A DNA stretch of 64,000 bases, taken from Scytonema millei VB511283 (lineage in GTDB: Bacteria; Cyanobacteriota; Cyanobacteriia; Cyanobacteriales; Chroococcidiopsidaceae). The DNA lies in the NCBI RefSeq assembly GCF_000817735.3, contig NZ_JTJC03000002.1, positions 124,001 to 188,000 of the forward strand, read 5' to 3'. The notes beneath the pieces are model-generated. The model worked only from the letters and a program-made list of their open reading frames with translations. It did not search any database and was not told the origin of the DNA. Below are positions 16,345 through 62,306 of this stretch, piece by piece. How positions within the stretch are numbered: the first letter of the stretch is position 1; every line of letters starts with the position of its first letter. The position numbers and the translations under genes were made by a program.

Positions 16345-17922
16345 GTGATTGAAGTAGAAGTACATTATTCCCTGCATAACTTCCTGCGATCGCAGGCAGA
16401 AGCTGCATGGTCGCATCATTTGACGATGGCGCGACTCGTAGCTAGAGCTTTGCGGCTCGGACGTAGTGCTTTGATTCAGGTGGGTGCTGGTTGCGGCTAT
16501 CAGGGACGTTATCGCCTGAGCTATCTAGCGCCAGCTCTACTTTGGCAATCTCCGGCGGTGATAGTAGCAACAGAGGAAGTGCAACAGCGTCTCTTGCGAG
16601 TAGAAATTCCGCCTCTACAGCAATGGCTGCAAACGAATAAAAGTATTATCGTCGGCGATCGCTGGATTCATCCCGATTTTCAAGGTATTTTACTCATTAC
16701 CCCTGCGGCTTGGCTGCAAGCTCAATGGGCGGGAACGGGCGATTTTCCCCCCAACATTCCGACACTAATTGATGGAGTGGACGATCTAGAAGACTGGGCG
16801 CGATCGCAACTAACTGTTAGCATTCATCCTGGTAACTGGGACGAATTGATGCTAGCTTATCCCGATCGGGCAGAAGTCATTCGGGAGGCGCGAGTCCAAC
16901 TGACAAAAGCCGTTTTCCAACACCCAGCTAACCCCTACGAGAGCTATCTCATCTCCCCAGGGGAGCAAGAGATTTTGACGGAGCTATTTACTAGACTAGG
17001 AGACCAGGGAGCAGGGAGCAGGGAGCAGAGGGAGCAGAGGAGCAGGGGAGCAGAGGGAGCAACTACCAATTATCAATTACCTAAAAACTGGTATTTATTC
17101 CAACAGCGATCGCAAACACCAGACTGCTTGTTGTGGATGAGTCTAAACCGCTCTCAAGGCTTATTTTCACTCTACTGCGCTCCCGCAGAGGTGGCTTCGG
17201 CTCTTGCACCAATTTGGACTCGACAGCCTGTAGTCTTCATGGGTAGTGCCTTAGATCGAGAAACAGAGGCTACGACTTATCGCAAGCGCTTGGGTTTACC
17301 AGAAGAACTTACTTGTTTGAAATTTGCTGGCGATCGCCACAACGAATCAATTCAACTCTACACGCCAGAACGTTTTCCTTTACCCAATACCCCCCAATAT
17401 CAACCCGCTTTGATGCGAGAAATTTATGCTTCGATTGGTGTGACAGTATCGCCAGGATTAACGATGATTTTAGTTGGCGATTTGCCTTTAAAACAGCAAA
17501 TCGGGGCGCAATTAGCCGCAGAGTTTGGTTCGCGGGTACAGGTAGAAAAAACGAGTTTGGATGAGAATAGCATTCTCGTCAGCGGTTGGGATTTTTGGCA
17601 GCAGCATCAAGGTATCTTGCCAGTACCGCAACTCACAATTATTACAACATTACCCATACCATCTCTAGAGCATCCAATTGTGGCGGGTCGAGTCGAATAC
17701 TATAAGCGATCGCGTCAAGACTGGTTTGCTCTTTATCTATTACCTGCGGCTTTAAATCAATTACAACGAGCGATCGCGCCTATGCGCGATCGTCAAGGAG
17801 TCGTAGCTTTACTAGATAGTCGCGTATTACACCGCAGTTACGGACAGCAGGTACTTGCAGCTCTCAGCCCTTCGGCTAGATGTAATTATTTAGATGCTAG
17901 TTTGTTTGCGAAAGAGGAGTGA
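16345..17922 (+). CDS. DinG/XPD-like helicase relative, probably ATPase-degenerate
   Basis: 525 residues from a GTG start. The N-terminal third resembles a superfamily 2 DinG-type motor, but the Walker A position reads QVGAGCGYQGRYRLSY without GKT, and the Walker B site reads TLIDGVDDLEDW instead of DEAH. A C-terminal helicase-like domain includes TYRKRLGLP and VVALLDSRVLHRSYGQQVL. I place it in a cyanobacterial helicase-like family from recall of similar proteins; catalytic activity is doubtful. Residues about 223-245 (GAGSREQREQRSRGAEG) are a heptamer-repeat insertion between natural segments FTRLGDQ and NWYLFQQR. Confidence 0.7.
   Translation: MIEVEVHYSLHNFLRSQAEAAWSHHLTMARLVARALRLGRSALIQVGAGCGYQGRYRLSYLAPALLWQSPAVIVATEEVQQRLLRVEIPPLQQWLQTNKSIIVGDRWIHPDFQGILLITPAAWLQAQWAGTGDFPPNIPTLIDGVDDLEDWARSQLTVSIHPGNWDELMLAYPDRAEVIREARVQLTKAVFQHPANPYESYLISPGEQEILTELFTRLGDQGAGSREQREQRSRGAEGATTNYQLPKNWYLFQQRSQTPDCLLWMSLNRSQGLFSLYCAPAEVASALAPIWTRQPVVFMGSALDRETEATTYRKRLGLPEELTCLKFAGDRHNESIQLYTPERFPLPNTPQYQPALMREIYASIGVTVSPGLTMILVGDLPLKQQIGAQLAAEFGSRVQVEKTSLDENSILVSGWDFWQQHQGILPVPQLTIITTLPIPSLEHPIVAGRVEYYKRSRQDWFALYLLPAALNQLQRAIAPMRDRQGVVALLDSRVLHRSYGQQVLAALSPSARCNYLDASLFAKEE
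17012..17063. repeat. Heptamer repeat GAGCAGG/AGCAGAGG inserted in a gene
   Basis: In-frame repeat DNA inside the helicase-like gene, followed by the ACCAATTATCAATTA-type unit also found between genes. Confidence 0.85.
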
Positions 17923-18110
17923 GGAGCGAGGAGCGAGGAGTGAGGGAAAGAGAGTGGTGCGGGGTGTGGGAAGTGTGGGAAGTGTGGGAGGACACAAGGG
18001 AGAATTTTTGAGAGCGCTCTCCCTTGTCTTCCTACTCCCTGCTCTCTTGTCTTCCTTGTCCTCCCCCTCACTCCTCGCTCCTCACTCCTAACCCCTCTTT
18101 CTACGGTATG
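17916..18110. repeat. Heptamer repeat tract
   Basis: GAGGAGC, GTGGGAAGT and CTCACTC units between the helicase-like gene and the DUF2839 gene. Confidence 0.8.
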
Positions 18111-25325: not shown

Positions 25326-25470
25326 TAGATTTGAGCGCGTATTTTTGCAGTCATGGTAGCTTTTGTTCAAGAAGCTGCATGAAATAGCTCTATCTCTATC
25401 TCAGTGCAGATAAATTGTATACTCCATCTTTGTTAGATAGAGTCAGCCGATCGCGCAGGCAGATTCGTCA

Positions 25471-28400
25471 ATGACTTCAATAGGATCGCTCGATAACATT
25501 TCTGAGGAAGTCTTTGTTTTTCCGGCATCGTTTGCACAACAACGGCTTTGGTTTCTCGATCGCCTATTTCCTGCTACTTCGTTTTATAATGTGCCGACGA
25601 CGGTTCGTCTATCGGGCGTGCTTGATTTAAAAGCGTTAGAAGAAAGCTTTAATGAAATTGTCCGCCGTCACGAAATATTGCGTACCAACTTCGGAGTGCA
25701 AGAGGGGCAACCCGTACAACTAATTACGCCCCATTCAAAGGTATTCCTGAAGATATCCGATTTACAGCAGTTGCCGGCAAGCGAACGGGAAGCAGCAGCG
25801 CAACAGGCGATCGCGCGGGAGATCCAGCAGCCTTTTAACCTGGATCGGGGTTCTCTGCTGCGAGTAATGCTGCTACAACTAGACGAGTCAGAGTATGTTT
25901 TGGTCATCAATCTGCACCACATCGTTTTTGATGAGTGGTCGATCGCGATCCTAATTCGAGAACTAGAATTGCTCTACTCTGCTTTTAGTAGGGGTAAACC
26001 TTCCCCTTTGCCCGAACTGTCAATTCAATATGCTGACTTTGCCCACTGGCAACGACAATGGTTGCAAGGGGAAGTGCTAGAATCGCAACTATCTTACTGG
26101 CGATCGCAGTTGCAGAATTTATCCGTTCTAGAGGTCGAGAGCAATCGTTGCCGTCCAAAAGAACGAGGCGATCGGGGAGCAATTGAGTTAATAGAGTTAC
26201 CACAAGACTTATCTCAAGCACTTTTGGCACTGAGTCATCAAGAAGGCGTAACGCTGTTCATGACATTACTAGCAGCGTTCCAAGTATTGTTATATCGCTA
26301 TACAGGGCAGACCGATATAGCTGTAGGATCGCCAATCGCCAATCGCAATCGGCGGGAATTGGAGGATTTAATCGGCTTTTTTGCTAATAGTTTAGTTCTA
26401 CGCACCGATCTATCAGGTAATCCCAGCTTTCGCGAGTTGCTGGCGAGAGTGCGACAGGTGACGGTAGAAGCCTACGCTCATCAAGATTTACCCTTTGAGA
26501 AGTTAGTAGAAGAGTTGCATCCAGAACGTCAAGGAAGCCGCAACCCATTGTTTCAAGTGGTATTTGCGCTGCAAAACGCACCTATAGAACAGCTAACGCT
26601 ACCTAAACTCTCGCTCTCTTCCTTCAAAGTGGAAACAACAACCGCTCGGTTCGATCTAGAGTTTTATCTATGGGAGTGCGCCGAAAACTTTAGGAGTTTG
26701 TGGGGTGACGGGTGGCAGCAGTCGGAGGGATTGCGTGGTGTTTTAGTTTACAACACCGAGCTGTTTGAGCCAAGTGCGATCGCGCGGATGCTCACTCATT
26801 TCCAAACGTTATTAACCGGAGTCGTTACCGATCCCGACACAAATTTAGCAGATCTACCGATTTTGAGCGCCGCAGAGCAGCATCAATTAGTAGAGTGGAA
26901 TCAAACTGGACGTAGTTATCCAGAGCGCTGCATTCACCAATTGTTTGAACTTCAGGTAAAACAAAGTCCAAATGCGATTGCAGTTAGCTTTGGAGAGCGG
27001 CAATATACTTATCATGAGTTGAATAGTGGTAGCAACCAACTAGCGCATTATTTGCGAAAACTAGGTGTAGGTTGCGAAACTCTGGTAGGTATCTGCATGG
27101 AACCTTCTCCAATGGCGATCGCTTCTTTACTAGGTATCCTCAAAGCCGGAGCAGCTTACGTTCCTCTAGATCCTACCTATCCCCCCGATCGCTTGCAGTT
27201 CATGGTGGAGGATGCTCAAGTATCTGTGCTGGTGACGCAACAAGCATTAGCCCCCCTTTTTAAGCTCAGTTGGGGAGATCGGAATTTAAAGATTGTTTGT
27301 TTGGAAAAGGATTGGGAAGCGATCGCACTTGAAAGCGAGCAGAACCCAAGCGATCGAACAACCGTAGATAACCTTGCCTACGTAATTTATACTTCTGGCT
27401 CCACGGGAACCCCAAAGGGCGTAGCAGTATCCCATCGAGCCGTAAATAGATTAGTATGCAACACCAACTACATCACCTTAGAACCTGGGGATAAAGTCGC
27501 TCAATGTGCCAATCTGTCATTTGATGCAGCAACCTTTGAGATTTGGGGCGCACTGCTAAATGGAGCGCAATTAGTGGGGTGCGATCGCGAAGTCATGCTT
27601 TCTCCCCAAAAGTTTGCCCAAGAGATTCGACAACAGGAAATTAGCATCCTATTTTTGACAACTGCCTTATTCAATCACATGGCGCGGGAAGTACCTGACT
27701 GTTTTCGTTTGCTGCGCTACTTGCTATTTGGGGGTGAAGCAGTTGATGTCAGGTGGGTCAAAGCAGTCAAGCAGCACGGCGCACCCGCACATTTGCTGCA
27801 CGTATATGGACCGACTGAAAACACTACATTTACTTCCTGGTATGAAGTGCAAGACGTACCAGAAGCAGCAACATCAATTCCGATTGGTCGTCCTGTTGCT
27901 AACACTCAAATTTACCTACTAGATGCCCACCTAAAACCCGTACCTATTGGCGTTACAGGAGAAATTTACATTGGTGGCGATGGATTAGCAAAAGAATATT
28001 TGAATCGTCCTCAGTTGACGGATGAACGGTTTGTCTGTAAGAGTCGGGAGTCGGGAGTCGTAGGGGCGGTTTTTTTTGAAGATCCCTGTGAAAATCAAAG
28101 ATTTCTGCAATTAAACCCGCCCGTACAGGAGTCGGGGAACAGAGCAGAGGAGCAGAGGAGCAGAGGAGCAGGGGAGAGTAATAACCAACCACCAACTACC
28201 AACTACCAACTACCAATTACCAATCGCCTCTACAAAACCGGAGATCTCGCCCGCTATCTTCCTGATGGCAATCTCGAATTTGTTGGTCGTACTGACGCGC
28301 AAATTAAGTTGCGAGGTTTTCGGATTGAGTTGGGCGAGATTGAAACAGTCTTGAAGCAGTATCCAAGTGTAGAAGAAACTGTTGTTGTGGTGCGGGAGGA

Positions 28401-29016
28401 TGGGAGTAGCGATCGCCGTTTGGTTGCTTACATCGTTCTCAACACGAAGAGATCCCCCCAACCCCCCTTAAAAAGGGGGGCTAGCGAATTTTCTCCTTCG
28501 CAAGGCGGACTAGGGGGGATCGGGGCAAATGAATTCCCTCCTTCTCAAAGGGGACTAGGGGGGATCGGCGATCTGCGAAGCTTCCTCAAAACAAAACTGC
28601 CAAATTACATGATGCCTTCCGCTTTTGTAGTCTTGAAGGCTTTGCCTCTAACACCTAACGGCAAAGTAGATCGGCAGGCACTTCCCTCACCCGATTTTAC
28701 TTCTGTCGATCTACCAACTCTTGCACCGCGAACGTCGGTTGAAGCTCAGTTAGCGCAGCTTTGGGCGGAAACGTTGGGGCGACAAGTAGGTATAAGCGAC
28801 GATTTTTTTGAGTTGGGCGGACATTCGCTCTTAGCTACACAATTAGTTTCGAGAATACGCGATCGCCTTGGGGTAGAAGTGCCACTGGGAGTTCTATTTG
28901 AAACACCAACGATTGTAGCGATCGCGCAATATATTGATACGATCCGTGGCGCAGATCGGTTACAAACGTCTGAGGCTGAGACATCCGCTCAAAATCGCGA
29001 GGAGGTGGAATTTTGA
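25471..29016 (+). CDS. Non-ribosomal peptide synthetase, module 1 (C-A-PCP)
   Basis: 1181 residues. The condensation domain (about 15-450) has HHIVFDE at 149-155, ending in Glu where DG is usual. The adenylation domain has core YTSGSTGTPKG from residue 640, and aligning it by eye to GrsA gives pocket code DAFFLGVTFK, suggesting a branched aliphatic residue such as Ile or Val. The carrier protein has Ser1119 in LGGHSLLATQL. A leading C domain with no upstream module suggests an acyl starter (inference). Three repeat-derived regions interrupt the A domain: a decayed copy near 27249-27284, 28038-28227 and 28450-28567. It is translationally coupled to the next gene through TTGA. Confidence 0.95.
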   Translation: MTSIGSLDNISEEVFVFPASFAQQRLWFLDRLFPATSFYNVPTTVRLSGVLDLKALEESFNEIVRRHEILRTNFGVQEGQPVQLITPHSKVFLKISDLQQLPASEREAAAQQAIAREIQQPFNLDRGSLLRVMLLQLDESEYVLVINLHHIVFDEWSIAILIRELELLYSAFSRGKPSPLPELSIQYADFAHWQRQWLQGEVLESQLSYWRSQLQNLSVLEVESNRCRPKERGDRGAIELIELPQDLSQALLALSHQEGVTLFMTLLAAFQVLLYRYTGQTDIAVGSPIANRNRRELEDLIGFFANSLVLRTDLSGNPSFRELLARVRQVTVEAYAHQDLPFEKLVEELHPERQGSRNPLFQVVFALQNAPIEQLTLPKLSLSSFKVETTTARFDLEFYLWECAENFRSLWGDGWQQSEGLRGVLVYNTELFEPSAIARMLTHFQTLLTGVVTDPDTNLADLPILSAAEQHQLVEWNQTGRSYPERCIHQLFELQVKQSPNAIAVSFGERQYTYHELNSGSNQLAHYLRKLGVGCETLVGICMEPSPMAIASLLGILKAGAAYVPLDPTYPPDRLQFMVEDAQVSVLVTQQALAPLFKLSWGDRNLKIVCLEKDWEAIALESEQNPSDRTTVDNLAYVIYTSGSTGTPKGVAVSHRAVNRLVCNTNYITLEPGDKVAQCANLSFDAATFEIWGALLNGAQLVGCDREVMLSPQKFAQEIRQQEISILFLTTALFNHMAREVPDCFRLLRYLLFGGEAVDVRWVKAVKQHGAPAHLLHVYGPTENTTFTSWYEVQDVPEAATSIPIGRPVANTQIYLLDAHLKPVPIGVTGEIYIGGDGLAKEYLNRPQLTDERFVCKSRESGVVGAVFFEDPCENQRFLQLNPPVQESGNRAEEQRSRGAGESNNQPPTTNYQLPITNRLYKTGDLARYLPDGNLEFVGRTDAQIKLRGFRIELGEIETVLKQYPSVEETVVVVREDGSSDRRLVAYIVLNTKRSPQPPLKRGASEFSPSQGGLGGIGANEFPPSQRGLGGIGDLRSFLKTKLPNYMMPSAFVVLKALPLTPNGKVDRQALPSPDFTSVDLPTLAPRTSVEAQLAQLWAETLGRQVGISDDFFELGGHSLLATQLVSRIRDRLGVEVPLGVLFETPTIVAIAQYIDTIRGADRLQTSEAETSAQNREEVEF
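27249..27284. repeat. Decayed copy of the G-run palindromic element in NRPS 1
   Basis: TTAGCCCCCCTTTTTAAGC followed by TTGGGGAGATCGG matches the intact element at the same A-domain position in modules 2 and 3, with several substitutions. Confidence 0.7.
28038..28227. repeat. Repeat insertion in NRPS 1 between DERFVC and LYKTGDL
   Basis: About 63 extra codons made of GAGTCGG heptamers, a palindromic GGGGCGG/CCCGCCC element (28061-28130), AGCAGAGG units and CAACTAC heptamers, all open in frame. Confidence 0.85.
28450..28567. repeat. G-run palindromic element cluster in NRPS 1, reverse orientation
   Basis: GATCCCCCCAACCCCCCTT then two degenerate GGACTAGGGGGGATCGG copies. Translated as SPQPPLKRGA and QGGLGGIGA, between A8 and A10 of the adenylation domain. 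Confidence 0.85.
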
Positions 29017-32000
29017 CAAGTATTGAGTTCTTAGCCTACCTCCGCTCTTTAGATATTCAGCTTTTCGTTGAGGGAGAAAGCTTGCGCTGTAACGCTCCTG
29101 AAGGGGTATTATCCCCCCAGTTACGTGCAAAAATTGTCGATCGCAAATCTGAGCTGATCGCCTTGCTGCACCAAGCAAATGCTCAAATCGATCGCTCTCC
29201 CCAGTTGGTAAGAATATCGCGCGATTGCTCTCTACCTCTGTCATTCGCTCAGCAGCGATTGTGGTTTTTGGATCGCTTAGTACCTAACAACCCTTTTTAC
29301 AACATACCTTTTTCAGTTCGGCTGCAAGGGAAACTTGACTATGTGGCTTTAAAACAGGCTTTTGGGGCGATCGTCGATCGTCACGAAGCCTTGCGTACCA
29401 ACTTCGTCAAGCTGGACGGGCAACCCGTTCAGATCGTTGCTGAAAAAGTCAATTTATCTCTGCCTGTTGTGGATTTGCGGCATTTACCCCCAAACGAACG
29501 ACAACTCACAGCCCAGCAAATCGCTACAGAAGAAGCCCAACAGCCATTTAACCTAGCGACCGATCTGCTACTGCGAGTGAAATTGTTGCAGTTAGATGCA
29601 GCTGAATACGTCCTGTTGCTGAATCTACACCACATTGTTGCCGATGGTTGGTCGCTGGGGGTACTGGTGCGAGAACTGGGATTACTCTACACTGCTAAGA
29701 GTGAAAGCAAACCTTACCCATTACCAGAATTGCCGATCCAGTATGCCGATTTTGCCTATTGGCAACGGCAATGGCTGCAAGGGCAAGTATTGGAGTCTCA
29801 ACTGTCCTACTGGCGATCGCATCTGGCAGATCTACCGATTCTGAATCTTCCCACCGATAGAACTCGCCCTGCCGTACAAACCTATCACGGTGCAACACAA
29901 AGCCTAAAGTTACCAAAAACTCTCACCCAGTCCCTAGAAGCCCTAAGTCAGCAAGCAAGCGTAACTCTGTTTATGACCTTGCTAGCAGCATTTCAAACGT
30001 TGCTACATCGCTATACCGGACAAGAAGATATTGCCGTTGGATCGCCCATAGCTAACCGCAAGCATAGCCAAATAGAGCCATTAATTGGCTTTTTTGTCAA
30101 TAGCCTAGTGCTGCGCGTCGATCTCTCCAACAATCCCACTTTTCGAGAGCTACTGGAACGAGTGCGACAAGTGACATTAGGAGCCTATGCCCATCAAGAC
30201 TTACCTTTTGAGAAGTTAGTAGAAGAGTTGCACCCAGAGCGAGACTTGAGCCGCAACCCTTTGTTTCAAGTCGTCTTTGCGCTTCAGAATGCCCCGATGC
30301 AACCCTTAGAGTTACCTGGGTTAACGTTGAACCCATTGAAGTTTGACGTGACTACCACGCGATTCGATCTAGAGTTGCATTTGTGGGAGTGCGATCGCGG
30401 GTTGAATAGTTTGTGGGAAGGATCGGTAGATGGACTGAGCGGTTTCGTAGCATACAACACCGATCTATTTGATGCATCCACGATCGCTCGAATGCTAGCT
30501 CACTTCCAAATCTTGTTAGAAGGCATAGTTACCAATCCCGATACACGCATTGCCAACTTACCCCTATTGAGCGCAGCAGAATACCATCAATTGTTGGTGG
30601 AATGGAATCAAACTAGCTGCGATTATCCAGAACGGTGCATTCATCAGTTATTTCAGGCACAAGCAGCGCAATCGCCCGATGCTGTTGCTGTTGTTTTTGC
30701 CGACGAGCAACTAACTTACCAGCAATTGGATCGACGTGCCAATCAATTAGCGCACTATTTACAACAATTAGGCGTGACTTCTGAATCCCTAGTAGGAATT
30801 TGTAGCGATCGCTCCCTAGAAATGGTAGTAGGTATACTGGGCATTTGGAAAGCAGGCGGAGCTTATATTCCCCTCGATCCAAATTATCCCAGCGATCGCC
30901 TAAAGTTCATGCTTGACGATACTCAAGTGGCGATCGTGCTAACCCAGAGTTCTTTAGCCCCCCTTTTGAAGGGGGGTTGGGGGGATCGGACTGAGCCTGG
31001 AAACGAAGAACCAGAATTAGCCCCCCTTTTGAAGGGGGGTTGGGGGGATCGTCTAATCTGCCTAGATACTGACTGGGAAACCATCGCCACCCACAGCGAT
31101 GAAACACCCAACATCAGCGTAACAACAAATAACCTAGCTTACGTCATCTACACCTCTGGCTCGACCGGAAAACCGAAAGGAGTTTTAGTAGAGCATCGAG
31201 GACTATGTAACGTCGTCCAAGCTCAAATTCAAATATTCAAACTACAACCAAAAAATCGGATTCTACAATTTAGCTCCCTCAGTTTTGATGCGTCTGTCTT
31301 TGAAATGTTACTAGCGTTTGGAGTTGGCGCTAGCCTTTACATCCCTCCTAAAACAGCCCATTTACCAGGAGCCGAACTAATTCAATTCTTACAAGACAAG
31401 GCGATCGATACTACTATTCTCCCCCCTGCGGTTCTAGCAGTTTTACCAGCAGCAGAACTGCCCACTCTTCAAACAGTAATTTCTGGCGGTGAAGCTGTTA
31501 AACGCGAAATTGTGCAGCAATGGGCTGTAGGTCGTCGCTTTTTTAACGCCTATGGACCAACAGAAGCAACAATCTGGGCGACAGTTGCTCAGTTAGGTGC
31601 TACTGATAATAATGACAACAAGCCATCCATTGGTCGTCCCATTTCTAACACCCAAATCTATCTTTTAGACTCTCACCTCCAGCCCGTACCAATTGGAGTC
31701 GTTGGCGAATTGTACATTAGCGGTGATGGGTTAGCACGGGGCTATTTAAATCGTCCCCAGTTGACGGATGAACGGTTTGTCTGTTTAGGGAGCAGGGAGG
31801 ACAATTCAATTCACAATTCACAATTGATAATTCACAATTACCAACAACCAACTCCCAACTCCCGACTCCCGACTCCCGACTCCCGTTTATATAAAACCGG
31901 AGATCTCGCCCGCTATCTTCCCGATGGCAATCTTGAATTTGTCGATCGCATTGATAATCAGGTAAAAATTCGGGGATTTCGGATTGAATTAGGCGAAATA

Positions 32001-34130
32001 GAAACACTACTGCTGCAACACCCAACAGTCCGAGAGGCTGTGGCGATCGCCCATGAGAATGCTACAGATAAGCGTATAGTCGCCTACATCGTACCGCAAG
32101 ACAGAGATTCCCATAGATTCACTACTAGCGATCGCCAAAATTTTTCTTCCCCGACTCCCGACTCTCTTGTACGGGCGCACAGCCGTGCGCCCCTACCGAT
32201 TCCCCCTCTAGAACAGCAGTTGCAGCACGAGCAAGTTAAGCAATGGCAAAATCTTTACGACCAGACTTATCATCAGCCTGCGACAAACAGCGATGCTACT
32301 TTCAACATCGTAGGCTGGAATAGTAGCTATACGAATCGACCCATTCCAAAAAAGCAAATGCAACAATGGGTGAGCGATCGCACTCAGCAGATTTTGAGTT
32401 TGCAGCCTCAGCGGGTATTAGAAATTGGTTGCGGTACGGGTTTATTGCTGTTTCAAATTGCGCCACACTGTACTGGGTATTGGGGAACTGATTTCTCATC
32501 TGCATCCATTGAATACATCGAGCAACAGTTGGCAACTCAACCATTGCCTCAAGTAAAGTTACTTCAGAGGATGGCGACTGACTTTGAAGGTCTAGAGGCA
32601 AATAGCTTTGATGCAGTGATTCTCAATTCGGTCGTGCAGTACTTTCCTAGCGTAGATTATCTCCTGCAAGTGCTGGAACAAGCAATTCACACTGTTGCCC
32701 CTGGTGGCTTTGTCTTTATTGGCGATGTACGAAGTCTCCCCTTGTTGTCAGCTTTTCATGCTGCGGTTCAATTGGAGCGGGCAGATAATACCGTAAGTCG
32801 AGAGCATCTGCAACAGCAGGTACAGACGGCGATATTTCAGGAGACGGAACTGGCGATCGATCCTGCTTTCTTTCACGCTTTGAAACAGCATTTGGAACGG
32901 ATCGGTCACATCCAAATTCAGCTCACACGCGGTCGATATTGTAATGAATTAACTCAGTTTCGCTACAACGTAATTTTACATATTGAATCAAATTGCTCCT
33001 CTTCTCATGGGCAGTTAGAAGGATCTCATTGTCCCCCTTTTCAAGGGGGGTTGGGGGGATCTTCATGCCCACCTTTCCAAGGGGGGTTGGGGGGATCTCA
33101 TTGCCCTCCCCAAGAAGAGTTAGCAAGATCTTTATGCCCCCCTTTCCAAGGGGGGTTGGGGGGATCTTCATGCCCGCCTTCCCAAGAAGGGTTAGGGAGA
33201 TCGTCCCAACTGAATTGGACTCAAGACAATTTAAACCTTGCCCAGGTGCGCGAGCATTTAGTTAAAACTCAGCCAGCAGTACTCAAGATTACAGGAATTC
33301 CAAATGCCCGTGTCGTAGGAGCAGTCAAAACGGCTCAATGGCTAGAAGAAGCAACGCAAGCACCCAAAACCGCAGGCAAAATGCGCGAAGCATTAGAACA
33401 AGTAGCATCATCGGGTATTGAACCGGAAGATTGGTGGGATTTAGCGGCAGAACTGTCTTACACTGTTGACGTGAGTTGGTCAAATGCAGATAGTACGGGA
33501 TGTTATGATGCTATCTTCCAGCATCAATCCGCCACAAAAAATAGTGCGTTATTGCCTTTTCAACAGCAGGTGAATCCAACTCGTCCTTGGAAAACTTACG
33601 CTAACGATCCTTTACAGACACAGTTTGCTCGTCACCTGATTTCCCAACTGCGAAGTGACTTAGAGCAAAACTTACCCCAGTACATGATACCTTCTGCCTT
33701 TGTAGTATTAGAAGCACTACCCCTGACACCGAATGGCAAAGTCAACCGTCGCGCCCTTCCTGCACCAGAGTTGATAAAACAATGGGGGGCTGACGATACA
33801 CCGCGATCGCCCATCGAGCAGAAACTTGCGAATATTTGGGCTGAACTGCTAGGACTCAAGCTTGTAGGACTGCATGACAACTTCTTCCAGTTAGGGGGGC
33901 ATTCGCTGCTAGCAACTCAACTAACTTCCCGTATCCGCGATGTATTCGGTGTAGAGTTACCTTTACGCAGCGTGTTTGAGTCACCCCAAGTCGCCCAACT
34001 TGCCAAAGCGATCGCCCATTTACAGAGCAACCAGCCGCAACAAACGCCCCAGATTGTTCCTCTTTCTCGCGACGCTCATCGTCGCCTGCGATCGTCCCTC
34101 AACCGCGATAAAGAGGAAGGCGATCGTTGA
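29013..34130 (+). CDS. Non-ribosomal peptide synthetase, module 2 (docking-C-A-MT-PCP)
   Basis: 1705 residues from TTG overlapping the previous stop; AGGAGGTG precedes it. Residues 1-55 (EFLAYLRSLDIQLFVEGESL) form a TubC-type N-terminal docking domain. The C domain has HHIVADG at 206. The adenylation domain (YTSGSTGKPKG near 713) gives by-eye pocket code DAFIIGAIWK: hydrophobic, not matched to a known residue. A methyltransferase is inserted before A10 (SAM motif VLEIGCGTG at 1135), the classic N-methylation arrangement. Carrier Ser1631 is in LGGHSLLATQL. Repeat insertions are at 30954-31050, 31785-31886, about 32174-32203 and 33020-33203. Confidence 0.95.
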   Translation: MTSIEFLAYLRSLDIQLFVEGESLRCNAPEGVLSPQLRAKIVDRKSELIALLHQANAQIDRSPQLVRISRDCSLPLSFAQQRLWFLDRLVPNNPFYNIPFSVRLQGKLDYVALKQAFGAIVDRHEALRTNFVKLDGQPVQIVAEKVNLSLPVVDLRHLPPNERQLTAQQIATEEAQQPFNLATDLLLRVKLLQLDAAEYVLLLNLHHIVADGWSLGVLVRELGLLYTAKSESKPYPLPELPIQYADFAYWQRQWLQGQVLESQLSYWRSHLADLPILNLPTDRTRPAVQTYHGATQSLKLPKTLTQSLEALSQQASVTLFMTLLAAFQTLLHRYTGQEDIAVGSPIANRKHSQIEPLIGFFVNSLVLRVDLSNNPTFRELLERVRQVTLGAYAHQDLPFEKLVEELHPERDLSRNPLFQVVFALQNAPMQPLELPGLTLNPLKFDVTTTRFDLELHLWECDRGLNSLWEGSVDGLSGFVAYNTDLFDASTIARMLAHFQILLEGIVTNPDTRIANLPLLSAAEYHQLLVEWNQTSCDYPERCIHQLFQAQAAQSPDAVAVVFADEQLTYQQLDRRANQLAHYLQQLGVTSESLVGICSDRSLEMVVGILGIWKAGGAYIPLDPNYPSDRLKFMLDDTQVAIVLTQSSLAPLLKGGWGDRTEPGNEEPELAPLLKGGWGDRLICLDTDWETIATHSDETPNISVTTNNLAYVIYTSGSTGKPKGVLVEHRGLCNVVQAQIQIFKLQPKNRILQFSSLSFDASVFEMLLAFGVGASLYIPPKTAHLPGAELIQFLQDKAIDTTILPPAVLAVLPAAELPTLQTVISGGEAVKREIVQQWAVGRRFFNAYGPTEATIWATVAQLGATDNNDNKPSIGRPISNTQIYLLDSHLQPVPIGVVGELYISGDGLARGYLNRPQLTDERFVCLGSREDNSIHNSQLIIHNYQQPTPNSRLPTPDSRLYKTGDLARYLPDGNLEFVDRIDNQVKIRGFRIELGEIETLLLQHPTVREAVAIAHENATDKRIVAYIVPQDRDSHRFTTSDRQNFSSPTPDSLVRAHSRAPLPIPPLEQQLQHEQVKQWQNLYDQTYHQPATNSDATFNIVGWNSSYTNRPIPKKQMQQWVSDRTQQILSLQPQRVLEIGCGTGLLLFQIAPHCTGYWGTDFSSASIEYIEQQLATQPLPQVKLLQRMATDFEGLEANSFDAVILNSVVQYFPSVDYLLQVLEQAIHTVAPGGFVFIGDVRSLPLLSAFHAAVQLERADNTVSREHLQQQVQTAIFQETELAIDPAFFHALKQHLERIGHIQIQLTRGRYCNELTQFRYNVILHIESNCSSSHGQLEGSHCPPFQGGLGGSSCPPFQGGLGGSHCPPQEELARSLCPPFQGGLGGSSCPPSQEGLGRSSQLNWTQDNLNLAQVREHLVKTQPAVLKITGIPNARVVGAVKTAQWLEEATQAPKTAGKMREALEQVASSGIEPEDWWDLAAELSYTVDVSWSNADSTGCYDAIFQHQSATKNSALLPFQQQVNPTRPWKTYANDPLQTQFARHLISQLRSDLEQNLPQYMIPSAFVVLEALPLTPNGKVNRRALPAPELIKQWGADDTPRSPIEQKLANIWAELLGLKLVGLHDNFFQLGGHSLLATQLTSRIRDVFGVELPLRSVFESPQVAQLAKAIAHLQSNQPQQTPQIVPLSRDAHRRLRSSLNRDKEEGDR
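30954..31050. repeat. Two G-run palindromic elements in NRPS 2
   Basis: Two near-identical copies of TTAGCCCCCCTTTTGAAGG plus GGGGTTGGGGGGATC, 63 bp apart, translated as LAPLLKGGWGDR. Confidence 0.9.
31785..31886. repeat. Heptamer insertion in NRPS 2 between DERFVC and LYKTGDL
   Basis: GAGCAGG, CACAATT and CCCGACT units open in frame, at the same A-domain point as the insertion in module 1. Confidence 0.85.
32174..32203. repeat. Palindromic GGGCGCAC element in NRPS 2
   Basis: ACGGGCGCACAGCCGTGCGC then CCCTAC, translated as RAHSRAPLP, just before the methyltransferase domain. An intergenic copy lies at 20116. Confidence 0.8.
33020..33203. repeat. Array of five G-run palindromic elements in NRPS 2
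   Basis: Five intact or degenerate copies read in another frame as PPFQGGLGGS repeats, within the C-terminal part of the methyltransferase domain. Confidence 0.9.
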
Positions 34131-37100
34131 ATACCAATCCTGTCTCGCACGCTGAATTTGTCTTTCCGGCATCGTTCGCCCAGCAGCGATTGTGGTTTCT
34201 TCACGCCTTAGCGCCTGGAAATCCCTTCTACAACATCTCGGCTGCGATTCGCTTGCACGGACACCTCAACATTACTGCCTTAGAGCAAACATTTAACGAA
34301 ATCGTGCGCCGTCACGAAGCTTTACGAACAAGATTTGAAATGTCAGATGGACAACTGCATCAAGTTGTGGTAGACAGTGTGAGTGTACCTCTCGCTATTG
34401 TAGACTTACGTACTTTACCTGCAAGCGATCGCGAAGCAGCCGCAAGACAACAGGCGATCGCGCAATCTCAGCGCCCCTTCAACCTGAGCGCAGATTTGCT
34501 GTTACGGTTGACAATCTTTCAATTAGATGCATCTGAATACATCCTACTATTGAATCTGCACCACATTATTGCCGATGGTTGGTCGATCGGCGTGCTGGTG
34601 CAAGAACTCGGCACGCTCTACACTGCCTTTAGTAGTAATAAATCTTCTCCTCTAGCAGATTTGCCCATTCAATATGCTGACTTTGCCCACTGGCAGCAGG
34701 AGTGGTTGCAAGGGGAAGTGTTGGAGTCGCAACTGTCCTACTGGCGATCGCAGTTAACCGATCTTTCGGTTTTAAATCTTCCCACTGACAGAGCGCGCTC
34801 AGCAATTCAAAACTACCGAGGTGCGACACAAAATTTTCAGCTATCAAAAAATCTCACTCAGTCCCTAGAAGCTTTCAGTCAGCAATCAGGTGTTACCCTG
34901 TTCATGACTTTGTTGGCAGCATTTCAAACATTGTTATATCGTTATACGGGACAAGAAGATATTGCCGTTGGATCGCCCATAGCTAACCGTAACCGCCCCG
35001 AAATAGAGCCATTAATTGGCTTTTTTGTCAATAGTCTAGTGCTGCGAACACATTTATCAGGCAACCCTACTTTTCAAGAATTACTGGGACGAGTGCGGGA
35101 AGTGACGCTAGGAGCCTATGCACATCAAGATTTACCCTTCGAGAAGTTAGTGGAGGAGTTGCACCCAGAACGCGACTTGAGCCGCCATCCTCTATTTTCT
35201 GTGGCGATCGCACTGCAAAATACGCCGATTACAGCTTTAGAATTACCTGGACTCGCTTTAAGTCAGTTTGAGTTTGACAACGGTACGAGCAGATTAGATT
35301 TAGAATTTCATTTATGGCAAACTCCAGCAGGATTGCAAGGGCAGATAATTTACAGTACCGATCTATTCGATCGCAGTACGATCGTCCGAATGCTAGGACA
35401 TTTTCAAACCTTACTCGAAGGAATTGTTGCCAATCCAAATCAACGACTGGTAGACTTACCAATTTTGACAGCAGCAGAACGGCAGCAGCTATTAGTGGAA
35501 TGGAATCTTACTCAGCAAGATTACCCGTCGCAGTGCATTCATCAATTATTTGAAGCTCAGGCAGATAAAACGCCAAACGCGATCGCTGTTGTCTATAAAG
35601 ACGAGCAATTAACTTACCAAGAATTGAACTACCGTAGCAACCAACTTGCAAGCTATTTGCAAAAACTTGGAGTTGCGCCAGAAGTCAAAGTTGGTATTTG
35701 CGTAGAGCGATCGCTGTTAATGATGGTGGGCATTTTAGGCATTCTGAAAGCTGAAGGAGCCTATGTCCCTTTAGATCCTACCTACCCCTCAGAACGTCTC
35801 AAGTTCATGTTAGAGGATGCCCAAATAACTATCCTACTAACACAACAATCCTTAGCCCCCCTTTTGAAGGGGGGTTGGGGGGATCTTCAATCCTTAGCCC
35901 CCTCTTCGGAGGATTGGGGGGATCTTCAATCCTTAGCCCCCTCTTCGGGGGGTTGGGGGGATCTTCAATCCTTAGCCCCCTCTTCGGAGGATTGGGGGGA
36001 TCTTCAATCCTTAGCCCCCCTTTTGAAGGGGGGTTGGGGGGATCTTCAACCACTCTACCTCGATCGCGATTGGGAAATCGTTGCTCAACAGAGCGGGGAA
36101 AACATAAACAGTGGTGTAACTGTTGCCAATCTTGCCTATATAATTTACACTTCAGGCTCGACCGGACAACCCAAAGGAGTTTTAGTCGAACATCGCGGAC
36201 TGTGCAATCTAGCTCAAGCTCAAATCCAAACCTTCGACCTAAAATCAGAGCATCGAATTCTCCAATTTGCCTCCCTGAGCTTTGATGCTTCTGTCTTCGA
36301 GATTGTCATGGCATGGGCAGTAGGAGCAACCCTATATCTAGTGCCAGAAGCAGCACGTCTAGGATCGGAGTTGATTTCGTATCTCAAAGATCGTGCCATC
36401 ACTCATGCTACCCTTCCGCCTGCCGTACTGAAGACTTTATCACCCACTCAATTGCCAGCCCTGCAAACTCTGATTTCTGCTGGAGAAACTTGTTCGCCGG
36501 AAATTGCAGCCCGTTGGGCAAGCGATCGCCATTTCTTCAATGCATACGGGCTGACGGAAACAACTGTTTGGTCTACGATTGCCCAAGTCAGCGATCGTAA
36601 AGGTACAACTATCGGTCGGGCGATCGCCAACACTCAAATCTACATCCTCGATGCCCATCTCCAACCCCAACCCATCGGTATTCCAGGTGAAATATACATT
36701 GGCGGAGTCGGTTTAGCAAGAGGCTATTTGAATCGTCCTGATTTGACTGCTGAACGGTTTATCTATGGAAATCATAGGGGCGCACAGCTGTGCGTCCCTA
36801 CTCCTGACCATCGGCTGTACAAAACCGGAGATCTTGCCCGTTACCTAAGCGATGGTAATCTTGAATACCTTGGACGCATCGATCGCCAAGTGAAAATTCG
36901 CGGCTACCGCATTGAATTGGGAGAAATTGAAAGCCTGCTATTACAACACTCAGCAGTAGAAGAAGCTGTAGTTTTGGCACAGGAAGATCGGTCGAGCAAC
37001 TATCGTTTAGTTGCTTATATTGTTCCTAATATAGAGACTAATTTATCAAATTCAAAATCCAAGTTGCGCTGGAAGCGCACCAAAGGTGCGACCCAAAATC

Positions 37101-38398
37101 CAAAATCGGACGAGTTGCGCTGCTTTCTCAAGCAAAAATTACCAGACTACTCGATCCCTTCAGCTTTTGTAGTGCTGCCATCCCTACCACTAACTCCTAA
37201 TGGTAAAGTGGATCGAAATGCCTTAATGAAGTCTAATATCAGTAGTCCAGAGCGTCTTTTTGTTACTCCTAAAACTGCTACTGAAGCAACCTTAACAACA
37301 CTTTGGGCAAATATCCTGAAGCTTGAGCAAGTGGGTATTGAGGACAACTTTTTTGAATTAGGTGGAAATTCCCTGCTGGCAGTCCAGTTATTGGAGCAGG
37401 TAGAGCGGCAATTCGAGCAAAAACTACCATTGTCCGATCTCTTTGGTGCGCCAACTGTTGAGCAATTCGCGCCGCTGATTCAGAAATGGGAAAAGCCTAA
37501 ACGTAATTCTAAGCGATCGCTCCTTGTGCCACTCCAGCCTCTAGGTTTTAAACCGCCATTCTTCTGTATTCACCCAATTTTCGGTGTTGTTCTGCCATAC
37601 CACGAGTTGGCGCATCATTTAGGAACCGAACAGCCATTCTACGGACTGCAACCTTTTGGGATGGACGGTTTACACCCACCATTAACCAGCATTGAGGAGA
37701 TGGCAACTGGCTACATCGAGGCAGTGCGTCAAGTTCAACCGCATGGTCCTTATCAGCTAGGTGGTTGGTCTTTTGGCGGCTTAGTTGCCTATGAGATGGC
37801 GCAACAGTTACACCAAGCAGGAGAGCAAGTGAGTCTTTTGGCAATATTAGATACGATCGCTCCTATTTCTAGCAATCGAGTTTCCTGGGGCGATGGTTTG
37901 AAATTTCTCCTGACAACCGTACCTGCTTCTATTTATCCTTTTGTTTTAGAATACTGGTCGCTGCTTCGCGATCGCCTGGCGCATTCTAGAAACGATAATA
38001 GCGATCGCCTACGCACTTCAAATCCAATTTCTACAATGAAAAAAATTCTGACTCCGCACGCATGGCTATCTTCCCTAGAACGAACAACTATTAGCCATCT
38101 CCTTCCACGATCGGCTGTTTTACGAATGCTGGACGAGTTAACCATTCATCGACTGATGAAGATTTTTTCTGCCAATAGCCGAGCTACCTTGAAGTATACA
38201 CCTCGACCTTACCCTCAAGCGATCGCCCTATTTAGAACTACCGAATTGCAAAAAAAATCTCACGACCCAACTTTAGGTTGGAGTCAATTGGTAAGATCGG
38301 GCGTGCAAGTTCACCACATTTCTGGTAACCACTTGACTATGCTGCAAAAGCCTCACGTCCGAGTGCTTGCCGAACACTTACGCAGATATCTGGCATAA
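34127..38398 (+). CDS. Non-ribosomal peptide synthetase, module 3 (C-A-PCP-TE)
   Basis: 1423 residues from TTG overlapping the previous stop by 4 bp, with GAGGAAGG upstream. The C domain has HHIIADG at 145. The adenylation domain (TSGSTGQPKG near 674) gives by-eye code DAFTIAAVWK, close to Phe-type codes, so aromatic or large hydrophobic is a guess; its A5 reads NAYGLTE instead of NAYGPTE. Carrier Ser1082 is in LGGNSLLAVQL. The terminal thioesterase has nucleophile Ser1215 in GGWSFGG and His1402 in SGNHLTML, releasing the product by hydrolysis or cyclisation. Repeats are inserted at 35852-36044, 36767-36814 and near 37060-37100. Confidence 0.95.
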   Translation: MNTNPVSHAEFVFPASFAQQRLWFLHALAPGNPFYNISAAIRLHGHLNITALEQTFNEIVRRHEALRTRFEMSDGQLHQVVVDSVSVPLAIVDLRTLPASDREAAARQQAIAQSQRPFNLSADLLLRLTIFQLDASEYILLLNLHHIIADGWSIGVLVQELGTLYTAFSSNKSSPLADLPIQYADFAHWQQEWLQGEVLESQLSYWRSQLTDLSVLNLPTDRARSAIQNYRGATQNFQLSKNLTQSLEAFSQQSGVTLFMTLLAAFQTLLYRYTGQEDIAVGSPIANRNRPEIEPLIGFFVNSLVLRTHLSGNPTFQELLGRVREVTLGAYAHQDLPFEKLVEELHPERDLSRHPLFSVAIALQNTPITALELPGLALSQFEFDNGTSRLDLEFHLWQTPAGLQGQIIYSTDLFDRSTIVRMLGHFQTLLEGIVANPNQRLVDLPILTAAERQQLLVEWNLTQQDYPSQCIHQLFEAQADKTPNAIAVVYKDEQLTYQELNYRSNQLASYLQKLGVAPEVKVGICVERSLLMMVGILGILKAEGAYVPLDPTYPSERLKFMLEDAQITILLTQQSLAPLLKGGWGDLQSLAPSSEDWGDLQSLAPSSGGWGDLQSLAPSSEDWGDLQSLAPLLKGGWGDLQPLYLDRDWEIVAQQSGENINSGVTVANLAYIIYTSGSTGQPKGVLVEHRGLCNLAQAQIQTFDLKSEHRILQFASLSFDASVFEIVMAWAVGATLYLVPEAARLGSELISYLKDRAITHATLPPAVLKTLSPTQLPALQTLISAGETCSPEIAARWASDRHFFNAYGLTETTVWSTIAQVSDRKGTTIGRAIANTQIYILDAHLQPQPIGIPGEIYIGGVGLARGYLNRPDLTAERFIYGNHRGAQLCVPTPDHRLYKTGDLARYLSDGNLEYLGRIDRQVKIRGYRIELGEIESLLLQHSAVEEAVVLAQEDRSSNYRLVAYIVPNIETNLSNSKSKLRWKRTKGATQNPKSDELRCFLKQKLPDYSIPSAFVVLPSLPLTPNGKVDRNALMKSNISSPERLFVTPKTATEATLTTLWANILKLEQVGIEDNFFELGGNSLLAVQLLEQVERQFEQKLPLSDLFGAPTVEQFAPLIQKWEKPKRNSKRSLLVPLQPLGFKPPFFCIHPIFGVVLPYHELAHHLGTEQPFYGLQPFGMDGLHPPLTSIEEMATGYIEAVRQVQPHGPYQLGGWSFGGLVAYEMAQQLHQAGEQVSLLAILDTIAPISSNRVSWGDGLKFLLTTVPASIYPFVLEYWSLLRDRLAHSRNDNSDRLRTSNPISTMKKILTPHAWLSSLERTTISHLLPRSAVLRMLDELTIHRLMKIFSANSRATLKYTPRPYPQAIALFRTTELQKKSHDPTLGWSQLVRSGVQVHHISGNHLTMLQKPHVRVLAEHLRRYLA
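35852..36044. repeat. Five tandem G-run palindromic elements in NRPS 3
   Basis: Copies begin at 35852, 35894, 35933, 35972 and 36011 (42- and 39-bp periods, all multiples of three), giving a 13-residue repeat LAPSSEDWGDLQS. The outer copies are full length; the inner ones carry a 3-bp deletion. Confidence 0.95.
36767..36814. repeat. Palindromic GGGCGCAC element in NRPS 3
   Basis: TAGGGGCGCACAGCTGTGCG then TCCCTAC sits between ERFIY and LYKTGDL, the third module to carry repeat DNA at this exact loop. Confidence 0.9.
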
Positions 38399-61145: not shown

Positions 61146-61601
61146 AGCTCAGACCCACAAACCAAAATAGACTGTATATCGTAGCAGATTTTAAGGCAAG
61201 CGTACACATACTATTGTAGTCCAACTTGTAAATATAGTACAAAATTACTGTATTTATTGCAACACCAGCACAACTTAGCTTCTTATAATTCCTGTTTTTC
61301 TCAGTAGATTTAGATATTACATCAAATCAAAACATCTAAGATAACGCTCAGATATTTCTACAATTTAAAAAAAATTTTGGCGGGTAATTAAGTCGTCGGG
61401 GTCGTCAGAATCTATCCAAAGTCATATCTAGACTAAGTTACAGGTCGTCAGAAGGGTCGTCAGAAGGGTCGTCAGAAGGGTCGTCAGAAGGGTCGTCAGA
61501 AGGGTCGTCAGAGATTTATTTTCCAGCACGGGTTGAGGAGCCGTGGGAATGAGCGCGTATATGCTTGACTTAGCAACTATGCAAAAAAGCTATAACTCGC
61601 T
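61146..61601. other. Intergenic region with iteron-like repeats
   Basis: About 455 bp, AT-rich left half. The right part carries six 12-bp direct repeats (61443-61514). A possible origin or control region. Confidence 0.5.
61443..61514. repeat. Six tandem 12-bp repeats GGTCGTCAGAAG
   Basis: Starts at 61443, 61455, 61467, 61479, 61491 and 61503; the last has a terminal GA in place of AG. Two looser copies precede it (61392 and 61400). The unit is not a multiple of 7, unlike the chromosomal heptamers, and resembles plasmid iterons. Confidence 0.85.
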
Positions 61602-62306
61602 ATGTCTAAAAAAATCATCCTTAAGGGAACCACCGAGCAGCTCAAGCCAGTAATCACGCAGATTCTAGCCATACACCAGATGCTAGAAGGTTTGGATCTT
61701 GGGGCTGGCAGCGACCGCGACAGCGAAGCCTACCCAGAGCGGCGATACCGACCCCAAATTAGGCTGCATTTCCTGCAAGACACGGATTTTGACAAGAGAT
61801 CTAACGCTCCAGGCTATCATGGCGAGCGTAGAGTACCAGGGCGGCTTACCTGGCGCTTGATGAACGAAACCAGCGAGACAATTACTCTGGGCGAGCTAAC
61901 TCGCATAGGGCAGCAAATCAAGCAAATTTTCGGCGCTAACAGCGGCTATGTCTGGCAAAAGGGCAAGGAAATATACACTTACGCCGATTGGGACAAGGGT
62001 TATCAGATGCAAATCCTCGCCCGAAGTGCCAGCCAAGCTCAGGATTTAGTGAGCAAAATATTGAGCTTGCAGGGGCATACCCCAACGTGGAAGTACATGA
62101 CAAAGGGTGAAAATCTTGACCAGCCATCGCGCTATCCTGAAACACCTGTAACCAAACTAATTCTGGGCAAAAGCGTAACTATGCCTAAAACTCGTCCTAA
62201 TGTCGAAGTACGCTTTGCTTATGCTGATGCAAGGATACATAAGCTTCTGGAGCCAGTTGTCATTTACGATCGGACGAACAAGAAAGTCGGCGCGTTGGTA
62301 CGGTGA
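61602..62306 (+). CDS. Hypothetical protein of accessory (plasmid-like) region
   Basis: 234 residues, basic, starting MSKKIILKGTTEQLKPVITQ. Contains RPQIRLHFLQDTDFDKRSN and GELTRIGQQIKQIFGANSGY, then VEVRFAYADARIHKLLEPVV. No family recognised. Good TTG- and GTG-free start at ATG 61602. Nucleic-acid association is possible from its charge but not shown. Confidence 0.6.
   Translation: MSKKIILKGTTEQLKPVITQILAIHQMLEGLDLGAGSDRDSEAYPERRYRPQIRLHFLQDTDFDKRSNAPGYHGERRVPGRLTWRLMNETSETITLGELTRIGQQIKQIFGANSGYVWQKGKEIYTYADWDKGYQMQILARSASQAQDLVSKILSLQGHTPTWKYMTKGENLDQPSRYPETPVTKLILGKSVTMPKTRPNVEVRFAYADARIHKLLEPVVIYDRTNKKVGALVR

Follow-up and report, generated by a model that had tools for sequence, protein, structure and literature searches.

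Heptamer-type repeat tracts in a helicase-like gene and other protein genes of Scytonema millei VB511283 and its relatives

Described repeat systems and the composite tract

Cyanobacterial genomes carry heptanucleotide repeats known as short tandemly repeated repetitive (STRR) sequences, and the palindromic elements of Rickettsia form one element family of defined length. In the papers on cyanobacterial heptamer repeats that we used for comparison (PMC4692102, PMC4679880), 68% of the GGGGA(C/T)T repeats of Anabaena are given as intergenic (PMC4692102), and thus intragenic heptamers are already on record. Work on Rickettsia describes dispersed palindromic elements that lie in frame in many unrelated protein genes without abolishing their function (PMC6649704). 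Among the publications listed in our literature search, as judged from the listings, we found no description of in-frame heptamer inserts in Chroococcidiopsis, nor of site-conserved inserts with turnover of their content.

We analysed a 64,000-nt stretch (hereafter, the window) of contig NZ_JTJC03000002.1 from the 5.97-Mb cyanobacterial genome of Scytonema millei VB511283, in which a repeat insert interrupts a conserved gene. The features are as follows.

16345..17922, + strand: host gene (ORF with a PF13307 match) of a 525-residue DinG/YoaA-like protein with degenerate helicase motifs
17003..17081, + strand: composite repeat insert, residues 220-246, delimited by GAGCA unit steps, dispersed matches and the loop alignment
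17009..17061, + strand: G-rich GAGCAGG/GAGCAGAG part of the insert, from TRF and unit steps
17060..17081, + strand: CAACTACCAATTATCAATTACC tail of the insert, from unit steps and lying within the dispersed matches to query positions 43-122

Seven GAGCA starts (17009, 17016, 17023, 17032, 17040, 17048 and 17057) follow one another at steps of 7, 7, 9, 8, 8 and 9 nt and are succeeded by a CAAYTA (CAAYTAY) tail with steps of 7 and 7 nt; the arrays called by TRF, which overlap one another, fall within 17005-17061. Many of the dispersed copies extend over query positions 43-122, corresponding to window 17002-17081, the tail included. With at most one mismatch, GAGCAGGGAGCAG has 10 matches in the whole window, three of them in the tract, as against a chance expectation of 0.11 per window, and the 14-mer GAGCAGGGAGCAGG has 337 copies in the genome while its reversed control has none; these two contrasts exclude a chance origin of the tract. 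The initial annotation had placed a heptamer tract at 17012-17063 inside a helicase-like gene. The tract is indeed present within the ORF 16345-17922, but its units are irregular and it reaches to about 17081, since the CAAYTA tail belongs to it. The about 23 residues that the tract was said to add hold for this extended feature only, whose loop of 31 residues is 22 longer than the shortest orthologous loops (9 residues) and whose composite amounts to about 26; the 52 nt between 17012 and 17063 encode only about 17. The proposed 7-residue period of the protein is absent beyond the first units because the GAGCA steps are irregular.

The tract resembles STRR and other cyanobacterial heptamer repeats in part in its heptamer-type units, of which only some are spaced at 7 nt (7, 7, 9, 8, 8, 9 and 7, 7), and STRR sequences also in having hundreds of dispersed copies that lie mostly outside genes (in 400 kb of this genome, 173 of 198 tracts are not intragenic) and are patchy among relatives. 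It differs from STRR sequences in that the composite tracts occupy, in frame, the loops of conserved proteins, the sites being common to the genus and their content turning over. The closest analogue would be the palindromic elements of Rickettsia, without the palindrome. They too are in-frame repeats in unrelated protein genes, so that the effect is alike (PMC6649704, PMC2635572), whereas the structure is not: this tract, the one that was folded, shows no palindrome, stem-loop or other RNA structure (fold z +0.91, with 158 of 200 shuffles folding at least as well), and instead of one defined length the inserts span 33-207 nt with different units, their content being replaced at fixed sites. 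Contingency loci, the phase-variable simple sequence repeats, likewise have intragenic tandem units with a length that 3 does not divide, but here the frame is kept between species, the units are degenerate and the tract lies mid-gene.

The host protein and its variable loop

The label "helicase-like" is correct, as residues 430-509 of the host protein match PF13307 (Helicase_C_2) with an E-value of 1.4e-6 and 28.9 bits against a cut-off of 25.3. DinG and YoaA are XPD-type helicases with four iron-sulphur cysteines, and the host shares with them this C-terminal helicase domain and a weak match of its family profile to the DinG structure 6fwr (E 0.004; 0.11 for the best single stretch). It stays far below the equivalog cut-offs of both families, scoring 95.5 vs 680 bits with the YoaA model and 39.6-49 vs 598-789 bits with the DinG models. 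The host family further differs from these helicases at the catalytic motifs, which we read by eye: none of 27 aligned sequences has GK[ST] at Walker A, and DEAH and motif VI are also degenerate. Activity as a helicase is doubtful. The search detected relatives in 58 of 60 genomes, its own included, and this family, conserved in cyanobacteria yet with no helicase motifs recognisable by eye, may be a pseudo-helicase that serves a different role. Two heptamer-rich inverted arms (17910-17946 and 18065-18101; 37 nt, 92% complementary, 118 nt apart), of which the first starts at the gene's stop codon, could form a large hairpin.

The loop that holds the insert is hypervariable, ranging from 9 to 52 residues across 30 aligned orthologues, its own included, and in all 30, sampled as one genome per species, the reading frame is open through the loop without a stop. 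The nearest congener (G001; 97% identity) has related units in a loop that is 24 nt longer and in frame, Chroococcidiopsis thermalis PCC 7203 (G002; 94% identity) has different units in a 52-residue loop, also in frame, and G006, from another genus of the same family, has yet another G-rich repeat; in many further orthologues the loop is short or non-repeat. The tolerance to length changes claimed for this site is thus borne out, and no identical insert conserved in distant orthologues was found among those aligned. In the structure prediction of the host, which can be read for local context only (mean pLDDT 52.1, pTM 0.42, 4-row alignment), pLDDT falls below 50 at residues 221-228 and 235-242, between helices at 205-219 and 247-256; a short helix is drawn at 226-230 in this low-confidence model.

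Similar tracts, reading frame and content at other loci

Similar tracts fill many other protein loops. A search of the genus with the tract recovered the composite within long ORFs of unrelated proteins, and 9 of 28 loci passed a stricter coding test. A survey of 400 kb plus the window gave 232 period-7 repeat clusters, 22 of which, in 15 ORFs, have coding signal on both sides. The survey was conservative, as it missed the window's own tract because of a right-flank score of 0.06; its count includes window 26328, where a conserved NRPS motif is the probable cause. With another threshold (tracts of at least 21 nt), 25 of 198, 22 of 173 and 20 of 175 tracts were intragenic in three 400-kb stretches, therefore most tracts lie outside genes. 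Pfam names nine of the hosts: NAD synthase, FGGY kinase, LdpA, NurA, CobN, gyrase/topoisomerase IV subunit A, PdxA, CbiQ and an FAD-oxidoreductase, the last by a match below the cut-off. CarB-, NifJ- and NRPS-like hosts, recognised by eye only, also carry tracts, and two of these lie in the window.

28041..28224, + strand: in-frame heptamer tracts and another dispersed repeat, before LYKTGDLARYLPDGN, in the ORF 25441-29013 (NRPS-like by eye)
31807..31885, + strand: in-frame heptamer tract, before LYKTGDLARYLPDGN, at the equivalent position in the NRPS-like ORF that follows

A dispersed repeat reading ESGVVGA.FF.(D/E)P....LQLNPPVQE occurs in frame both in CobN (G000, the genome analysed here, C1:330258-330391) and in the NRPS-like ORF (window 28041-28184). 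Tandem repeats of another unit type, 36 and 39 bp long, are found at window 33021-33202 and 35846-36049, within the long ORFs 29013-34130 and 34127-38398.

The inserts add 20-70 residues to conserved enzymes, and those of PdxA and NadE appear as gaps against solved structures. Their peptides have a hydrophilic G/S/R/E/Q/N/P composition that recurs across many host proteins. Of the 41 composites (G-rich part plus tail) in the three 400-kb stretches, 22 lie within genes in sense orientation and none is antisense; sense orientation in 22 of 22 is as expected, because the reverse strand of the tract has stops in all three frames. Tails alone are less strict, with 17 sense, 9 antisense and 65 non-genic. 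A strict stop-codon filter, which we considered, is a weak explanation: 69% of all heptamers contain no stop when repeated, and only 13 of the 25 intragenic tracts of the S. millei genome are open in all three sense frames.

We compared 13 sites of this genome with their orthologous intervals in three other genomes, and recovered 33 of 39 site-by-genome cells (11 in G001, 10 in PCC 7203 and 12 in G006). All 33 intervals are multiples of 3, the GyrA-like site being among those not recovered; among inserts of G001 and PCC 7203 that were not chosen as open, a set overlapping with the 33, this holds for 21 of 22. A three-way comparison over 400 kb counted length changes of 21 nt or more: in coding sequence 22 of 27, 23 of 24 and 17 of 23 are divisible by 3, against 59 of 140, 64 of 171 and 52 of 148 in noncoding sequence. 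Tract-linked changes of at least 9 nt keep the frame in 15 of 18, 17 of 18 and 11 of 13 coding cases in the three genome pairs, against 37 of 103, 49 of 120 and 38 of 113 noncoding ones; pooled over pairs that are not independent, 43 of 49 coding changes keep the frame vs 124 of 336 noncoding ones (Fisher p 1e-11).

Among the six exceptions in coding sequence, four are offset inside the insert itself: three adjoin another change by which the frame is regained (102842 with 102812, 242530 with 242491, and 330258 with 330424), and one lies in the FAD-protein insert, which in both genomes has a total length divisible by 3. The other two are one GyrA/ParC-like gene of G001 (C1 ~332860-332920, locus L162), which is out of frame at its heptamer tract and in frame in S. 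millei and PCC 7203; the G001 tract has quite different units, and the two gene halves are in different frames. Coding differences of 1-2 nt number 8 and 10 in the two pairs that include G001 vs 3 in the remaining pair, therefore this break may be an assembly error; it may also be a real frameshift. Four coding events of 763-1466 nt have no ORF in the partner genome, and three of these are not multiples of 3; all four look like other inserted DNA.

The flanks of the sites are about 87-100% identical at the protein level within the genus while the content between them turns over, with insert lengths of 33-207 nt and differing units at orthologous sites. Ten of the 33 inserts share no irregular exact string of at least 12 nt with the orthologous insert, and 18 of the 33 have their longest irregular match not in the orthologous site but in an unrelated locus of the same 400 kb. 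Thirteen of these 18 best matches are 19-31 nt long and five are 13-15 nt; since random 80-nt pieces share a median of 13 nt and a maximum of 60 nt with sequence elsewhere, the 13-15-nt matches weigh little and single matches prove little. The 18-mer GGGACGAGCTGGGAGCAG is present in a congener's copy of the tract and absent from the window's, and has 22 (G001), 25 (PCC 7203) and 8 (S. millei) dispersed copies. At two loci of G001 (L116 and L119) the palindromic repeat TAGGGGCGCACAGCNGTGCGCCCCTAC stands in frame where the congeners hold heptamers. Within the genus, we saw no newly inserted copy at an otherwise empty site.

Tract sites are common to the genus and mostly also to G006. Three genomes from other families, for which 31 of 39 cells were recovered, mostly have shorter loops without period 7 at these sites, with 2 residues at the first NadE site in all three; some loops are as long as those of S. 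millei but unrelated and likewise without period 7 (EcfT, 44 and 47 residues; CobN, 41). The GAGCAGG-type 14-mer is patchily distributed over 47 of 195 genomes of the order, with 113-337 copies in Chroococcidiopsis, none in eight other family members, one in G006, where the reversed control has nine, and 467-656 in four sampled genomes of a distant genus. In that genus, none of the 30 best matches lies in a coding ORF, in an inexact comparison as the matches mostly lack the tail; therefore abundance alone does not lead to such inserts.

Explanations of the inserts and their origin

The frame is rarely lost even as the repeat sequence changes fast between species, therefore the tract looks like tolerated filler rather than an on/off switch. 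We consider it quite likely from these comparisons that it is a translated, dispensable loop sequence derived from a dispersed repeat pool, with its frame held by selection. It would be a copy, or a mosaic of copies, from the pool of heptamer-type repeats, filling a flexible loop of a conserved protein and predicted to be translated within its host, where the peptide would act as a disordered linker with little function. Versions that are out of frame or bear stops would be removed by selection. New content would arise by repeat-mediated exchange with, or insertion from, other loci, together with some local slippage.

The initial annotation had proposed a potentially phase-variable site, at which slippage of a unit that is not a multiple of 3 would switch the gene on and off. 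The unit lengths of 7-9 nt, the difference in tract length between congeners and the out-of-frame GyrA-like gene of G001 are in line with this proposal, but it is very unlikely and not supported by the sequences compared. All 30 aligned orthologues have an open frame, the 24-nt difference from the nearest congener does not correspond to complete heptamers, and PCC 7203 has different repeats in the same frame; the units are degenerate rather than near-perfect, and the tract is mid-gene. Between species, where we looked for frameshifted variants, the pooled bias towards frame-keeping changes in coding tracts also speaks against a switch, and the sole tract site out of frame as a whole, the GyrA-like one, belongs to the assembly with the excess of 1-2-nt differences. 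An intragenic repeat with a unit that is not a multiple of 3 is, taken alone, no evidence of phase variation. If the inserts were instead excised from the transcript or the protein, or skipped by the ribosome (mini-intron, intein or hop), the interruption of conserved enzymes by 20-70 residues would find an explanation, but neither a length in multiples of 3 nor the lack of stops would be required, yet all recovered intervals are multiples of 3; with no RNA structure at the tract (z +0.91) and no intein domains in a Pfam scan of the nine host proteins, such a process is extremely improbable.

Selection for the peptides themselves, for example as hydrophilic tails useful under desiccation, would agree with the recurring hydrophilic composition and with the sharing of sites across the genus and mostly with G006; however, neither sequence nor length is conserved at orthologous sites, and the loops in the three genomes from other families are mostly shorter and free of repeats, so that we hold functional linkers to be highly improbable. 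Slippage in place, by which every loop would have grown its own repeat without copying between loci, fits the runs of identical units within inserts and some length changes of 21 nt. It does not fit the recurrence of the same unit families and irregular strings at unrelated loci, the unrelated content at the same site in congeners, or the two G001 loops with a palindromic dispersed repeat in place of heptamers, and we judge slippage alone unlikely to be the whole explanation. The data on insert content favour exchange with the dispersed pool over slippage in place. Under a more speculative extension of the filler reading, which we regard as possible but rather doubtful, the Chroococcidiopsis loops would be standing landing sites, with repeat cassettes exchanged among unrelated genes through conversion or templated end joining, possibly while breaks caused by drying are being repaired, so that loops are rewritten repeatedly and selection keeps the in-frame versions.

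The individual tract is minor; the interesting part is the combination of sites kept genus-wide, changing content and a kept frame. Repetitive DNA would thereby contribute to how many conserved proteins evolve in a free-living bacterium, in species close enough for kept sites and exchanged contents to be seen. The inserts would also provide a natural map showing which enzyme loops can take up tens of foreign residues, and a test bed for repeat movement in a desiccation-tolerant organism. Elsewhere in the window, a perfect 12-bp tandem repeat of GGTCGTCAGAAG with 5.8 copies lies at 61443-61512, outside the listed ORFs of at least 80 aa and upstream of the ORF 61602-62306.
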